From positions 1 to 21,847 of the IMG/VR virus record IMGVR_UViG_3300043446_001926: a DNA stretch of 21,847 bases. One strand, given 5' to 3'. This DNA is from a virus. How positions within the stretch are numbered: the stretch's first letter is position 1; each line of letters opens with the position of its first letter. The position numbers were made by a program, and so were the translations under genes. This document shows positions 3,909-20,496 of the stretch, piece after piece. The notes under the pieces are model-generated. The model ran no database searches. It worked only from the letters and a program-made list of their open reading frames with translations, and had not been told where the DNA came from.

Positions 3909-4631
3909 ATGCCAACCAATAACGGAGCAACCTATTTCCGAGGCGACAACACCGTCAAAGTTTCACAGGCGTTCGAGCAGGACGAGTGGGGCAACGTCAT
4001 CAAAACCGAGACATGGGTGTTCAAGGGGAACGTGGTCGAGTCAATCGTGGCGCCGTCAGGTCAGGATTCGATGTCGTCAGATTCCGAGCGGGAAATCCTC
4101 TCTCGTTCCATGACTTTCGACGAGGCAACGCAGACGACCACGTTCGAGCAGAGGAAGATTCTCAGCTATGCCTCGCCGTCGAAAAAACGGATGAGCATCG
4201 ACGCCAACAGCGGCACCGAGAGCGTCACCGCGCACCCGCGATTCCAAGAACTCGCGGGAACACCGGACACTCCCAACGAAACCAACGCAGTGTGGATTGC
4301 ATCGAGCGATTCACTGGCCACAAAGCGGTTCGTCGAGTTCAAGAAGCCGAACCTCTACGGGGTTTCATCGTACATCGCAGGGAACGGTTCGACACTGAAG
4401 CTGACTTACTTCGACACGTGGGCGGGATTTGGAAGCGTCACGAACAAGATCGGGCGCATCGACTTTCCAGCCGTCCCGGGATTGTGGGGGACGGCATCGT
4501 CGTGGCTTCTCGCAGGGGCAACCGCCGAACCCTTCGGGAATCAGTGGAAGGTCTCCCTGCTCTATCGCAACGCATCGGAGAACTTCGGGCAGTACACGGG
4601 GGGAGGGTGGGCTGGTCAGATTTACGCATGA
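3909..4631 (+). CDS. Tail-tip/minor tail protein, paralogue B
   Basis: This is a 240-residue protein starting two bases after the stop of paralogue A. Residues about 103 to 165 align with it: VTAHPRFQELAGTPDTPN, AVW, RFVEF and VSSYIAG. The N-terminal 90 residues differ from paralogue A and include GNVIKTETWVFKGNVVES followed by a Ser/Glu-rich loop. No enzymatic signature is visible. The product is probably a structural component of the distal tail, perhaps forming a hetero-oligomer with paralogue A. The stop is overlapped by the next ATG. The family is not one I can name. Confidence 0.8.
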   Translation: MPTNNGATYFRGDNTVKVSQAFEQDEWGNVIKTETWVFKGNVVESIVAPSGQDSMSSDSEREILSRSMTFDEATQTTTFEQRKILSYASPSKKRMSIDANSGTESVTAHPRFQELAGTPDTPNETNAVWIASSDSLATKRFVEFKKPNLYGVSSYIAGNGSTLKLTYFDTWAGFGSVTNKIGRIDFPAVPGLWGTASSWLLAGATAEPFGNQWKVSLLYRNASENFGQYTGGGWAGQIYA

Positions 4632-8542: not shown

Positions 8543-10111
8543 ATGCCGAACTTCATTCGACAACTTCGAAAGACTACTTCGGGGGCTCCGCCGATTACGG
8601 GGATTCCCTCGGGTGTTCTGCTCGTAAACACCGCCGACCAAACTCTTTCCTTTCCGAACGCCGCTGGGACAGACTGGGTGACGATTCAGGCGGGTGCATC
8701 GTCGCCGTCGTTCGCTCTCAATCAGTTCACCTTCGACGGTAACGGATCGCAAACGGCATTCACCACCACATCGACGGACTCGACCGATGCGCACTTCATC
8801 GTGGCCATCGGTGGAGTCTTCCAAACCGCTGGAACCGATTACACCGTCACCGATGGCGTGGTGACATTTACAACACCGCCGCCGAGCGGGGAGAAGGTTA
8901 ACGTGCTCGTCGCGTCAGGTGGTGTCATGGGGCCTCAGGGACCCGCAGGAGCGCAGGGACCAGCAGGGCCGAGTGGAGTTCAGGGCGTAGAAGGACCAGC
9001 GGGAGGACTCGGTGCGACCGGGTCAACTGGACCGAGCGGGGCGACGGGTCCTATCGGCGCGACAGGCATTCCCGGGCCGAGCGGTGCGCAAGGTGTCGCT
9101 GGTCCTGCCGGGGGAGCGACTGGCGCGACGGGGCCAAGTGGATTGCAGGGACCTTCGGGTTCACCCGGTGGCGCAACCGGACTTCCCGGGGCAACGGGGG
9201 CAACTGGCGCATCCGGAGTTAGTGCGTTGTGGCACTACACGGGAGCATTCGACCTTGGCAACGCTTACGCAGTCGGTGACTTGGCCACGTATCAGGGGCA
9301 ACTGTGGTATCGCTCAGACGCGAACGGGGGCAACGTAGGTGACGTGCCGTCAACGGCTTCCCCGTTCTGGGACCTCATCGCGAGTCGTGGGGCAAACGGT
9401 CCGGCAGGGTATGATGGAGCAACGGGAGCAACGGGTCCGACGGGCGCAACAGGTCCTGCGGGGGCGCAGTACTGGGGGGGCACCCTTGCACCAACGAACA
9501 CGCTCGGCAAAGAGGGTGACGTCTACTTTCGAGAACAGGGGTATGACACCGACACGGGTGCAAAGTTCGTCACGGTCTACGTCAGGCAGGCTGACGGGTG
9601 GTCCTTCCTCGCGTCGATGAGCGGTCCACGGGGTCCGACTGGTGCGAGCGGTCAGGAAGGCGCAACGGGTCCAAGAGGATTCCCGGGGCCTTCGGGCGTC
9701 CCGGGACTCGGGCTGGTGGGACCAGTAGGACCACCCGGGCCCGCAGGACCACAAGGACCTCCCGGCGAAATGGGCACCCGAGGGATGGCAGGTCCACAGG
9801 GAGACACTGGTCCCACGGGGCCGCCGGGAGCAACCGGAGCAACGGGGGCAACAGGTGTCGATGGCGTCGCTGGTGTCGATGGGGCAACAGGCGCGACGGG
9901 TCTCGAAGGCGCGACAGGCGCAACTGGAATGCCGGGCGGTGATGGTCCCCCGGGATTTCCCGGGCTTGATGGAGCAACTGGTGCAACCGGACCAACCGGA
10001 CCGACCGGACCAAACTGGATGCCGACAACGCAACTCCCTTCGACGACGGCTGTTCCGTACGGGTACTTCGACGCAGGGCAAGGAAGGTTGGTGCCTTATT
10101 ACACGGTATGA
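8543..10111 (+). CDS. Collagen-like tail fibre protein with carbohydrate-binding-like module
   Basis: This is a 522-residue modular protein. Residues 1-50 ([14 protein letters not shown] onward) resemble the N-terminal module of the previous gene. Residues about 53-128 form a beta-domain ([12 protein letters not shown], then [12 protein letters not shown], then [12 protein letters not shown]) found again in the next two genes. Gly-X-Y triplets rich in GAT, GPS and GPT run from about 130 to 227 and, with interruptions, from 283 to 491. Residues 228-282 contain an aromatic module ([30 protein letters not shown]) like CBM5/12 chitin-binding domains. A second globular insert lies near 308-360. 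The C-terminal tip is short ([18 protein letters not shown]). Collagen-like stalks trimerise in known phage fibres. Occasional GG steps break the triplet register. Confidence 0.9.
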
Positions 10112-10533: not shown

Positions 10534-12943
<2,410 letters not shown>

Positions 12944-17979: not shown

Positions 17980-18209
17980 ACCAAGAACTTCAGAACCTAC
18001 TGACCACCCACGCTGACGCCGTGGAGATGGCCATCGAGTCGGGCAGGTATCTTCTGCTCAAGTCAACTCACCTGCACGTGGCCATCCTCCCGGGGAGTCG
18101 GTGCCGCAAGTGCGGTGGATCAGTGCCGAAGGTGCAGGGGCGCAGACTCTGCCTCGCCTGCTCGCCGCAAGCCAAGCAACGCCGCAAACCCATCATTCGC
18201 ATCTCATGA
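17976..18209 (+). CDS. Small zinc-ribbon protein
   Basis: This is a 77-residue protein with a GTG start overlapping the previous stop. A four-cysteine zinc-ribbon pattern is plain: Cys43-x2-Cys46 (CRKCGG) and, 12 residues later, Cys59-x2-Cys62 (CLAC), followed by a basic tail (KQRRKPIIRIS). The N-terminal 40 residues are helical and then beta-like. It is translationally coupled to the RuvC-like resolvase gene by ATGA, so it may help bind DNA, but a role in transcription or translation control is equally possible. Confidence 0.75.
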   Translation: MNQELQNLLTTHADAVEMAIESGRYLLLKSTHLHVAILPGSRCRKCGGSVPKVQGRRLCLACSPQAKQRRKPIIRIS

Positions 18210-18667
18210 GCACGATCGCAATCGACCCCGGGGTGAACGGGGGAATCGCATGGAACGACGCGGACGGACCACGCGCCGTCAGAATGCCTGAGACTGACGG
18301 GGACATCATCACCACCCTGCGAAACCTGCAAGCGGCGGGGGCGCGAACAATCGTGATGGAACTACCCGCGAAAGCGATCTTCGGTGCTGGTCACTCATCG
18401 CTCGCGGTCCTGCATCGGAACGTGGGGTTCATCCAAGGGGTGGCAATGGCGATCGGGTTCTCGCTCCTTCTCATTCAACCGAAGGCATGGCAGAAGGTCA
18501 TCGGGATCTCCAAGCGACCCGGGGAGGAACAGAGGAAGTGGAAAAACCGACTCAAGGAGGAGGCACAGAGACGCTTTCCCAACCTCCACATCACTTTGAG
18601 CACAGCAGATGCGGTGCTCATCCTCGCTGCCGGGTTGGCAGCAAAAAACAACAACAACAGACAGTAA
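18206..18667 (+). CDS. RuvC-like Holliday junction resolvase
   Basis: This is a 153-residue protein starting by ATGA overlap. The RNase H-like fold motifs are in order: strand 1 with the catalytic Asp7 (IAIDPGVNGGIAW), the second acidic site Glu52 (TIVMELP), and the C-terminal acidic site in STADAVLIL with Asp135. A PKAWQK stretch (92-97) and a basic segment (about 103-123) also fit the RuvC/YqgF-like phage resolvases. The length is close to RuvC (about 170). These nucleases cut branched DNA during recombination or before packaging. It lies in the same block as RecT- and SSB-like genes. Only one Asp is seen in the last motif where RuvC often has two. Confidence 0.82.
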   Translation: MSTIAIDPGVNGGIAWNDADGPRAVRMPETDGDIITTLRNLQAAGARTIVMELPAKAIFGAGHSSLAVLHRNVGFIQGVAMAIGFSLLLIQPKAWQKVIGISKRPGEEQRKWKNRLKEEAQRRFPNLHITLSTADAVLILAAGLAAKNNNNRQ

Positions 18668-18669
18668 CA

Positions 18670-18984
18670 ATGAACAAAGAACTAATTGAAATGCTGCTAA
18701 AAGTGGCACTTGGACAAGAAAAACAAGAAAAACAAGCTGAACAAATCGTTCCAGAACAGCAGATTGTAGTGCTCGACAAAGGGTTTGTTTACGTCGGAAA
18801 CGTAACCATCCGAGATGGTTGGGTGAACATTGAAAACGCAAGAAACATCCGCATTTGGGGAACAACCCAAGGGCTTGGTGAACTTCGTAATGGCCCATTG
18901 AAAGAGACCAAGTTGGACGAGTGTGGAATCGTGTTGGCCCCATTAAAAAGTCTTATCCATTTGATACCATGCAAAGGGTTTTAA
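18670..18984 (+). CDS. DUF6948-like small protein
   Basis: This is a 104-residue protein. The frame is open upstream inside the resolvase gene, but ATG 18670 just after that stop is the sensible start. A Lys/Glu/Gln-rich N-terminus (about 8-30) leads into a beta-rich part: VVLDKGFVYVGNVTIRDG, then NIENARNIRIWGTTQGLG, then KLDECG and IHLIPC. The 'G-x-V ... DG ... NARNIRIW ... L ... IPC' pattern resembles the phage domain DUF6948 as I remember it. Base use is more AT-rich than in the neighbours at both ends. Function is unknown. Confidence 0.68.
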   Translation: MNKELIEMLLKVALGQEKQEKQAEQIVPEQQIVVLDKGFVYVGNVTIRDGWVNIENARNIRIWGTTQGLGELRNGPLKETKLDECGIVLAPLKSLIHLIPCKGF

Positions 18985-19169
18985 TTTTAGACGGACACAG
19001 GTCCGTGTCCGGGCACGGGCACGGGTACGGGGACGGGTACGGGGACGGGTACGGGTACGGGTACGGGTCCGGGTCCGGGTACGGGTACGGGTCCGGGGAC
19101 GGGTACGGGTCCGGGTACGGGTCCGGGTACGGGTCCGGGTCCGGGTCCGGGTCCGAGGAGAAATATTAA
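18969..19169 (+). CDS. Low-complexity (Gly-X)n protein encoded by the hexanucleotide repeat
   Basis: This is a possible 66-residue protein: MQRVLILDGHRSVSGH, then 24 Gly-X pairs where X is Tyr (10), Ser (9), Asp (3) or His (2), then EEKY. The start overlaps the previous gene by 16 bases and has no ribosome binding site, so expression is uncertain. Every Gly codon in the pairs is GGG, and every X codon ends in C. Gly/Tyr/Ser-rich peptides are often disordered and self-associating. The alternative is that this stretch matters as DNA or RNA rather than as protein. Confidence 0.45.
   Translation: MQRVLILDGHRSVSGHGHGYGDGYGDGYGYGYGSGSGYGYGSGDGYGSGYGSGYGSGSGSGSEEKY
18992..19011 (+). promoter_or_regulatory. 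Perfect hairpin leading into the hexanucleotide repeat
   Basis: CGGACAC (18992-18998) and GTGTCCG (19005-19011) form a 7-bp stem with a 6-base loop directly at the left border of the repeat. It follows an AT-rich stretch. It could be a replication or recombination landmark, or simply a degenerated repeat edge. Confidence 0.4.
19011..19154 (+). repeat. 24-unit GGG-NNC hexanucleotide tandem repeat with G-quadruplex potential
   Basis: Twenty-four consecutive 6-base units, each GGG followed by TAC, TCC, GAC or CAC, without interruption. Runs of three G recur at exact 6-base spacing, a textbook G3N3 pattern able to form G-quadruplexes in single-stranded DNA or mRNA. The array lies 44 bases upstream of the RecT-like gene. 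Its GGG and terminal C are invariant while the two middle bases vary. Confidence 0.95.
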
Positions 19170-19197: not shown

Positions 19198-19998
19198 ATG
19201 AACAACGAAAACAAACCACTGGCCCTGTTCGCAGGGGTGAACGACCCCGTCGGGGCAGCAATGCAACTAGGTGAGGCCTTCGCGTCCTCGGGGATGTTCG
19301 GGTGCACCAAACCCGCGCAGGGGGCCATCCTCGCTCTGCAATGCCTGACCTCGGGGCTGACGCCGTTTGAGGTCACGCAGACCTACCATCTGCTCGACGG
19401 CAAACTCTCGATGAAGAGCGATGCGATGCTCGGAAAATACGTGCGAGCCGGGGGGCGCGTCCAATGGATCACTCGAACCCACGAACGCTGCAAGGCGAGG
19501 TGGACGTTCCGGGAGAACGACCTCGAGATGGAGGTGACCATGCAGGAACTTGTGGCGAGCGGGGTTGCGCTCGGGAAAGGTGGCGAACTTAAAGACAACT
19601 ACCGCAAGCATCCGAGACAGATGCTCACGGCACGTCTCATCTCAGAGGCCGTGCGACTACTCGCGCCTGACGTTGTCAGCGGCGTTTATACGCCAGAGGA
19701 GGTCACGGACTTCAGTCCAGCAGCTGCACAGCCAATCGCTGACAGACCCATGCCCTTGCCTGTCCTAGACGCTTTGACGGAGCAGAAAAGCGACGTTTCC
19801 GATCCCGTTGCGCCACCCACAGTCGAGGCAGAGGTGATTGAGGACATCGAGGACGAGTTCAAGACCCTCTTAGGAGCACACTACGGAGCAGCACTCGCTT
19901 TCTTCAAGGTCGAGCGTCTCACCAGTTTGTCAACCCGAGTCCAGCAGGACATCCGCAACCGCACCGAAGCTCTCATCAAGAAAATCTCAACGAAGTAA
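19198..19998 (+). CDS. RecT-family single-strand annealing protein
   Basis: This is a 266-residue protein. RecT features include a helical N-terminus with QGAILALQCLTSGLTPFEV (position of the 'A-x-x-G-L-x-P' segment), then THRTHER-type strands with YHLLDGKLSMKSDAMLGK and VRAGGRVQW, the DLEMEV strand, and the family's signature KDNYRKHPRQMLTARLISE, followed by LLAPDVVSGVYTPEEV. The C-terminal 90 residues are acidic and then helical, a likely partner-binding tail. RecT proteins coat ssDNA and anneal homologous strands, often with an exonuclease and an SSB; here an SSB-like gene follows at once but no exonuclease is visible in the window. The leader is A-rich without a Shine-Dalgarno sequence. 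Confidence 0.85.
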   Translation: MNNENKPLALFAGVNDPVGAAMQLGEAFASSGMFGCTKPAQGAILALQCLTSGLTPFEVTQTYHLLDGKLSMKSDAMLGKYVRAGGRVQWITRTHERCKARWTFRENDLEMEVTMQELVASGVALGKGGELKDNYRKHPRQMLTARLISEAVRLLAPDVVSGVYTPEEVTDFSPAAAQPIADRPMPLPVLDALTEQKSDVSDPVAPPTVEAEVIEDIEDEFKTLLGAHYGAALAFFKVERLTSLSTRVQQDIRNRTEALIKKISTK

Positions 19999-20001
19999 AG
20001 T

Positions 20002-20496
20002 ATGGCATTTATCATCAATCGAAAGGCTGGCGAAGGTCAGTTCATCCGCACTCCCGGCATCTACAAGGGGACGATTCAGTTCCCGCGTGAAATAGAGTGC
20101 ACGCCAAAGGGCGACACGAAGATCAAACTCGAGTTCGTCACGACCTCGGGGAAGGTGGTCGACGATTACATCAACTCCGAGAAGATGTGGTGGAAGTTAA
20201 ACAACCTTCTCGCGGCCATCGACCCAAAGGGCGAAAAGTACGCCGCAGACGGTGTTGAGTTGGACTTCACAGACACGCAGAACTTCATCGCATTCGTGAG
20301 GAAAATGGACGGGGCTGAGATTTGTTTCGCAGTCTACACCGAGACGTACCGCAAACAGGACGGAACAGAGGGAGTCGCTGTGCGAACTCGCCCAATGGAT
20401 TCGTCACGGGGGCGCAAACAACTCAACCCAGCAATCCTCGCGCAGATTGAGGCCGCTGAGAAGGCCGCTGAAGGCCCGGACGAGGTACCATTCTGA
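20002..20496 (+). CDS. SSB-like single-stranded DNA-binding protein with acidic C-terminal tail
   Basis: This is a 164-residue protein starting three bases after the RecT-like stop. The body looks like an OB-type beta-protein (IYKGTIQFPREIECTPKG, then KIKLEFVTTSGKVVDDY), comparable with DUF669-type phage SSBs. The last residues, PDEVPF, match the acidic C-terminal peptide of bacterial SSB (DDDIPF), which recruits recombination and repair proteins. The body sequence is not typical SSB, so assignment rests on the tail, size and RecT linkage. It probably protects and presents ssDNA to the annealase. Confidence 0.72.
   Translation: MAFIINRKAGEGQFIRTPGIYKGTIQFPREIECTPKGDTKIKLEFVTTSGKVVDDYINSEKMWWKLNNLLAAIDPKGEKYAADGVELDFTDTQNFIAFVRKMDGAEICFAVYTETYRKQDGTEGVAVRTRPMDSSRGRKQLNPAILAQIEAAEKAAEGPDEVPF

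Follow-up and report, generated by a model that had tools for sequence, protein, structure and literature searches.

The 24-copy array of GGG-NNC hexamers at positions 19011-19154 of the window (the whole 21,847-nucleotide stretch of viral DNA analysed here) is very probably, at a probability of about 0.88, the coding sequence that makes up the body of a small gene, gene B. Under the same estimate, this gene and the overlapping gene A (DUF6948 superfamily) form a compact two-gene phage cassette in which B encodes a Gly-dipeptide low-complexity protein, and the two are inserted together as one unit, both among phage early/recombination genes and at other places.

An in-frame hexamer array in the window

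Analysis of the window showed that 19011-19154 consists of 24 uninterrupted GGGNNC units; nowhere else in the window do even two such units follow one another. In 200 mononucleotide shuffles, GGGNNC runs reached at most 3 units (compared with 24 in the window) and TRF placed a 6-base repeat of 23.8 copies at 19010-19152, which confirms the 24 copies counted by an earlier reading of the same DNA (the sequence-only reading). The middle bases of the 24 units are TA (10), TC (9), GA (3), and CA (2). Read in the frame of gene B, the array specifies 24 Gly-X dipeptides in which X is Tyr in 10, Ser in 9, Asp in 3, and His in 2. An ATG at 18969, which lies inside the 3' end of ORF A, opens the reading frame of the array (ORF B), and because of this predicted coupled start the reading of the array as an intergenic element was rejected. 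The 3' end of the array is 43 nt before recT. The features of this region are as follows.

18209..18667, + strand: RuvC-like Holliday junction resolvase (PHROG 1770, E=9.8e-14); upstream flank, outside the cassette
18670..18984, + strand: gene A, 104 aa, predicted to have an Sm/LSm-like fold; probable divergent relative of DUF6948 (PF22253)
18969..18984, + strand: A/B overlap, with the B start codon inside the 3' end of gene A; predicted translational coupling
18969..19169, + strand: gene B, 66 aa, (XG)n low complexity, MQRVLILDGHRSVSGHGHGYGDG...SGSEEKY, in the -1 frame relative to gene A
19011..19154, + strand: 24 GGGNNC units, equal to 24 Gly-X dipeptides, probable body of gene B
19198..19998, + strand: RecT-like annealing protein (PHROG 561, E=2.3e-24); downstream flank, outside the cassette

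Predicted translation of gene B

The product of gene B reads MQRVLILDGHRSVS, then the 24 Gly-X dipeptides, then EEKY, with the stop at 19169. The codons before the array (MQRVLILDGHRSVS) recur in relatives as M.R.LTLDG, and in subfamily A1 the N terminus of B is usually M-x-R-x-L-T-L-D-G. In the window, B starts at an ATG 16 nt before gene A ends, a layout that is the same in L165-L172. An overlapping ATG was found at 112 of 163 loci, at a distance of 13, 16, or 19 nt upstream of the end of the A stop codon, and it is often made up of an adenine and the TGG of the C-terminal Trp codon of gene A. The overlapping ATG and the recurrent N terminus of B argue for translational coupling rather than frameshifting, and initiation by coupling within the 3' end of gene A is, judging from the sequences, the most likely origin of the predicted B protein.

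An alternative is that a -1 ribosomal frameshift near the A stop codon makes A and B a single protein, with the array as the C-terminal tail of A, and the position of B in the -1 frame relative to A at 152 of the 163 loci is consistent with this. However, the -1 frame follows from an ATG that overlaps the last Trp or Cys codon of A, no common slippery heptamer was apparent at the junctions when these were read by eye, and at a small number of loci B lies in another frame and has a start of its own. In addition, an SD-like 4-mer is present at the right distance for 51 of the 69 overlapping ATGs in the A2 set (a raw count with no background rate). A frameshifted A-B protein is thus unlikely, and we treat B as a separately initiated gene.

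Neither A nor B from the window gave a usable match in Pfam, PHROGs, or NCBIfam, and the weak Pfam matches of gene B were only to keratin-like low complexity. The short LTLDG leader prompted the idea that B is a RiPP precursor, which was rejected because no recurrent modifying enzyme was found among the neighbour clusters. Fused forms of B were also seen. At L281, no stop separates the (XG)n ORF behind A (A match at 4001-4276) from a ParB-like protein (ParB_N, E=6.3e-25), and the whole reading frame of 712 aa is a possible Rosetta-stone fusion. At one locus of each subfamily (L187 and L249), B is fused to a common domain of ~110 aa (..CTERALHATIIPPKW.GDRWWIVALIGEVQW..) for which no Pfam match was found.

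Linkage of (XG)n genes to gene A

The linkage between A and B was counted in a census whose queries were alignments of A alone, from subfamilies A1 and A2, and which covered 80 viral loci for each subfamily and 16 loci in bacterial genomes. An (XG)n array was present behind A on the same strand at 77 of the 80 A1 and 76 of the 80 A2 viral loci, so that ∼95% of the sampled viral A relatives have an (XG)n gene directly behind them. X in the linked ORFs is Tyr, Ser, Asp, or Asn. Among the bacterial-genome loci, an array was found behind A in 13 of 16, and within 62 nt in 12 of 16. The background for (XG)n arrays elsewhere in the same loci was 0.0055 per 900 bp, or ∼170 times rarer; 12 such arrays were found, several of them just upstream of A. 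Seven loci with room behind A were scored as array-less. In four of these (L174, L265, L150, and L164), there is an array that is degenerate, masked, or of different composition, and no array was found behind A at L260, L321, or L162.

The reverse test used only the DNA pattern GGGKMC x6, and A was directly upstream in 67 of the 91 arrays that had at least 250 bp of upstream sequence. Many of the arrays without A were Gly-Ala repeats in unrelated frames. Two single scans found at least 470 and at least 580 viral contigs that encode A relatives. No A was found in the plasmids searched. Among 299 Pseudomonadota genomes, A occurred only in the seed genome (0 in the other 298), from which we conclude that A and B are mainly a viral cassette. 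One contig, IMGVR_UViG_3300017948_000002, holds two cassettes ∼0.9 kb apart, one of each A subfamily (L222 and L317), and so one phage appears to carry both. At several loci (L165, L169, L171, L177, L183, L184, and others), the contig ends no more than about 200 bp after A, either in the array or next to it; the arrays may thus be interrupting assembly, and the counts of B may be too low.

The array travels with gene A

Among 17 recT relatives taken from the viral collection, 14 lack the cassette and have the resolvase gene (in one case another gene) directly before recT, with no array. An array is present at the recT locus in L124/L027, L053, and L130, and its unit number and order differ among them. 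Unit number and order differ even between copies with identical A (L165 and L027), and L165 has an A identical to that of the window and a different array order. At L166 and L167, a 99%-identical A and B pair lies between an unrelated upstream gene and a gene named by eye as DUF669-like, with no recT start nearby. The array thus travels with gene A, not with recT, and the absence of the cassette from most recT relatives, together with the near-identical A and B elsewhere, indicates that the pair is transferred as a unit.

These findings do not support the suggestion in the sequence-only reading that the array could be tied to the control of recT. Two observations that it had named as speaking against its view of the array, loss in close relatives and synonymous variation among relatives, are both present: most recT relatives have no array, and in L053 and L130, which carry both A and B, the Gly codons vary synonymously (GGA, GGC, and GGT) and other units occur (GTG, ATG, and GCC), including units that are not NNC. 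A comparison of gene A in the window and in L168 showed 47 codons that differ synonymously and 15 that differ by replacement.

At least 44 of the 177 loci have an SSAP or exonuclease family no more than 3.5 kb away, a raw count with no background rate that we do not claim as an enrichment. Because annealing proteins or exonucleases are this close, a role of the cassette in recombination is possible; a recombination neighbourhood as a rule was set aside, since the 44 loci are a lower bound without a background rate. Further observations concern genes outside the cassette. The recT of L122 is 97% identical to that of the window and the resolvase just upstream is clearly different, as if there were a recombination junction at the start of recT. 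The ORF behind recT (20002-20496), called SSB-like in the sequence-only reading, had no useful match in Pfam or PHROGs. Two long window ORFs (8543-10111 and 10540-12936) contain collagen-like Gly-X-Y repeats unrelated to gene B and are probably tail or fibre proteins.

Variation within and between arrays

The dominant Gly codon over 151 distinct arrays was GGC in 119, GGG in 17, GGT in 12, and GGA in 3, and the Gly codon was 95% uniform inside arrays and different between loci. In the 138 arrays with at least 10 units, the two synonymous positions of the hexamer, 3 and 6, had a mean entropy of 0.17 and 0.15 bits and the two replacement positions, 4 and 5, one of 0.96 and 0.83 bits, and 73 of these 138 arrays had zero synonymous variation. 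The uniformity of synonymous sites that the sequence-only reading saw in the window therefore holds generally. Point mutation alone would be expected to give the opposite pattern, and the combination of uniform synonymous bases with diverse replacement bases indicates that plain protein constraint is insufficient and that fast turnover is needed too.

The X residues over the 151 arrays were Tyr (1474), Ser (1041), Asp (968), and Asn (135), with others rare. Within NNC codons, GCC (Ala) was observed 9 times compared with 225 expected from independent positions, and ACC (Thr) 3 times compared with 36, a depletion that points to selection on residues. The Ala deficit was present in GGC (6 observed, 178 expected), GGG (1 and 26), and GGT arrays (1 and 29) and is therefore not explained by one restriction site.

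Rapid turnover with selection at the protein level fits this pattern and is the most economical answer. Gain and loss of units would homogenise all positions within an array, and selection for mixed Tyr, Ser, and Asp (and Asn) and against Ala and Thr would maintain diversity at positions 4 and 5. Turnover is supported by arrays that are uniform inside yet differ from locus to locus, by the changes of unit number and order between copies with identical A, and by repeated X words longer than in shuffles in 11 of 111 arrays (p<=0.01). X order is otherwise near random in most arrays, which turnover and selection do not fully explain, and duplication has left only weak direct traces. The sequence-only reading had offered recent slippage or selection on the DNA or RNA itself, and the first survives in part, since the required turnover is close to slippage; selection on the nucleic acid as a G-quadruplex does not.

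The arrays could also be a neutral product of hexamer slippage with no function, in keeping with the variation of length and order among near-identical copies, the block duplications in some arrays, and the presence of the array in about a fifth of recT relatives and its absence from the rest. Neutrality is nevertheless very unlikely, as unrelated phages encode the same X residues by different codons, Ala and Thr are selected against, B is almost always linked to A, and its start codon and N terminus are conserved. Diversification of the X codons by a base-targeted mutator (for example, adenine-specific retroelement mutagenesis) would account for the restriction of variation to hexamer bases 4 and 5. 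However, in GGT arrays the T of the Gly codon departs in 8 of 257 cases and the next base, usually also T, in 91 of 257; the single long GGA array keeps its A; and neither the listed ORFs of the window nor the recurrent neighbour clusters showed a reverse transcriptase on reading, which leaves a mutator very improbable. Turnover under protein-level selection is thus the reading that we carry forward.

The G-quadruplex question

From the regular G3N3 spacing, the sequence-only reading had predicted G-quadruplexes on the sense strand. In models of the window array RNA, the predicted energy was -87 kcal/mol with quadruplexes allowed and -68 kcal/mol without, so a quadruplex is physically plausible in the window itself. 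It is not a conserved property of the arrays, because a sense-strand G3 quadruplex motif is possible in only 21 of the 151; the window-lineage relatives L171 and L172 use GGC, as does L175. A DNA or RNA element whose quadruplexes pause replication or control translation of recT would agree with the G3N3 spacing throughout the window array, with its modelled stability, and with the 43-nt distance to recT. Against this, the motif is rare and GGC is the usual Gly codon, the array is linked to A and not to recT, and positions 4 and 5 are not independent, as predicted by amino acid and not by base-level selection. Such an element is accordingly a very improbable explanation of the array, and we retain its reading as the coding sequence of B.

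Predicted fold of gene A

PF22253 was matched by 39 of 54 aligned members of the gene A family (best E=2.7e-33). The A of the window alone fell below the reporting level for this profile, and the copy in RcapNL, which is 53-58% identical to it, gave E=1.3e-4, below the cut-off. The nearest viral fold matches of A include DUF6948 proteins, and the predicted fold of the window A matches the DUF6948 protein A0A6J5PFX8 (BFVD) with E=5e-7 and an rmsd of 1.4. A thus probably belongs with the DUF6948 superfamily. In Pfam, this superfamily is entered as one domain of unknown function, and the entry does not extend to the linked (XG)n gene.

AlphaFold models of the window A and of a subfamily A2 member had pLDDT values of 90.8 and 95.9. 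When two separate A models were compared with the PDB by Foldseek, the best 50 matches were nearly all Sm/LSm proteins, with best E values of 4e-3 and 1e-3 and TM of 0.4-0.7 for these predicted models. The matches include 3by7, the solved structure of an Sm/LSm-like protein known from environmental sequence, and the five-strand Sm fold is present in the predicted A models. By sequence, A had no match in the PDB, and comparison of the A profile with 19 Hfq sequences (hhalign) gave control-level scores, and so no sequence-profile similarity (Sm1/Sm2) was seen. The likeness of A to Sm/LSm/Hfq proteins is therefore one of predicted fold only, not of sequence membership. A search of the 54 A members against the PADLOC defence models gave no support for a defence protein, as it returned nothing beyond one marginal BrxA match (E=0.016).

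Putative function of the cassette

The Sm-like fold of A suggests RNA binding, the Tyr-rich Gly/Ser/Asp low complexity of B suggests multivalent self-association, and the tight coupling and cotransfer of the two suggest joint action. A may be an RNA-binding protein of Sm/LSm-like type, and B may be a partner built of stickers (Tyr) and spacers (Gly, Ser, and Asp). Made together, they would form a ribonucleoprotein assembly or condensate during infection that protects or handles phage RNA or DNA or counters host defence. We infer the formation of a ribonucleoprotein assembly by Sm-like A and Tyr/Gly-rich B only tentatively. More speculative still is a widespread mobile phage ribonucleoprotein-condensate system, in which a putative ring-forming Sm-like A and a coupled Tyr/Ser/Asp-Gly scaffold B supplied in trans might build a protective or replicative compartment or counter host defence.

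Gly-dipeptide or Tyr-Gly-Ser composition is known from silk fibroin (GX)n, FUS-type Tyr/Gly/Ser domains, and the EBNA1 Gly-Ala repeat, and silk and FUS low-complexity domains self-associate. The likeness of B to these proteins is one of composition and no homology is claimed; in contrast to them, B is Asp-rich, has almost no Ala, is phage-encoded, and is coupled to a DUF6948 gene. The nearest published parallel that we found is the Sm ribonucleoproteins of Borgs, some of which have fast-evolving disordered N-terminal amino acid tandem repeats (PMC9879509). Both cases join a mobile-element Sm protein (here, by predicted fold) to a fast-evolving, repeat-born region predicted to be disordered, but the Borg repeat is fused N-terminally and has longer units, whereas here the repeat is a separate overlapping gene of Gly-X dipeptides.

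No paper on DUF6948 and no description of the A/B pair were found in the literature searched, whose scope lay outside most subscription papers, and the cassette, widespread in phages, is apparently undescribed. Through its linkage to B, DUF6948 would gain a partner and, with it, a candidate role. The B genes would supply a natural family of Gly-dipeptide polymers with hundreds of variants, and their arrays would show cleanly how repeats turn over while selection acts on composition.

The cassette in cultured phages

With the window A as query, relatives were found in Rhodobacter phage RcapNL, Rheinheimera Barba phages, and a Manatee Spring metagenome myovirus, and the second subfamily added Pectobacterium, Iodobacter, Vibrio, and Chlorobiaceae phages. 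An (XG)n ORF lies behind A in RcapNL, Barba18A, the Manatee Spring myovirus, Taid, PhiPLPE, and Vibrio IKEMa6-1. The pair is thus carried by cultured Rheinheimera, Rhodobacter, Pectobacterium, Iodobacter, and Vibrio phages and is testable now. The pair also carries a warning for annotation, as the array can be missed or assigned a wrong reading frame, and as several contigs stop shortly after A. The (XG)n ORF of the Manatee Spring myovirus, which uses GGC codons, is annotated as "lamprin." In Chlorobiaceae phage CV-1-33, gene 25 (L327, 3283-3528) lies behind A and is annotated as a protein that reads MAMAMALAM, which probably comes from translating an (XG)n array in the wrong frame.
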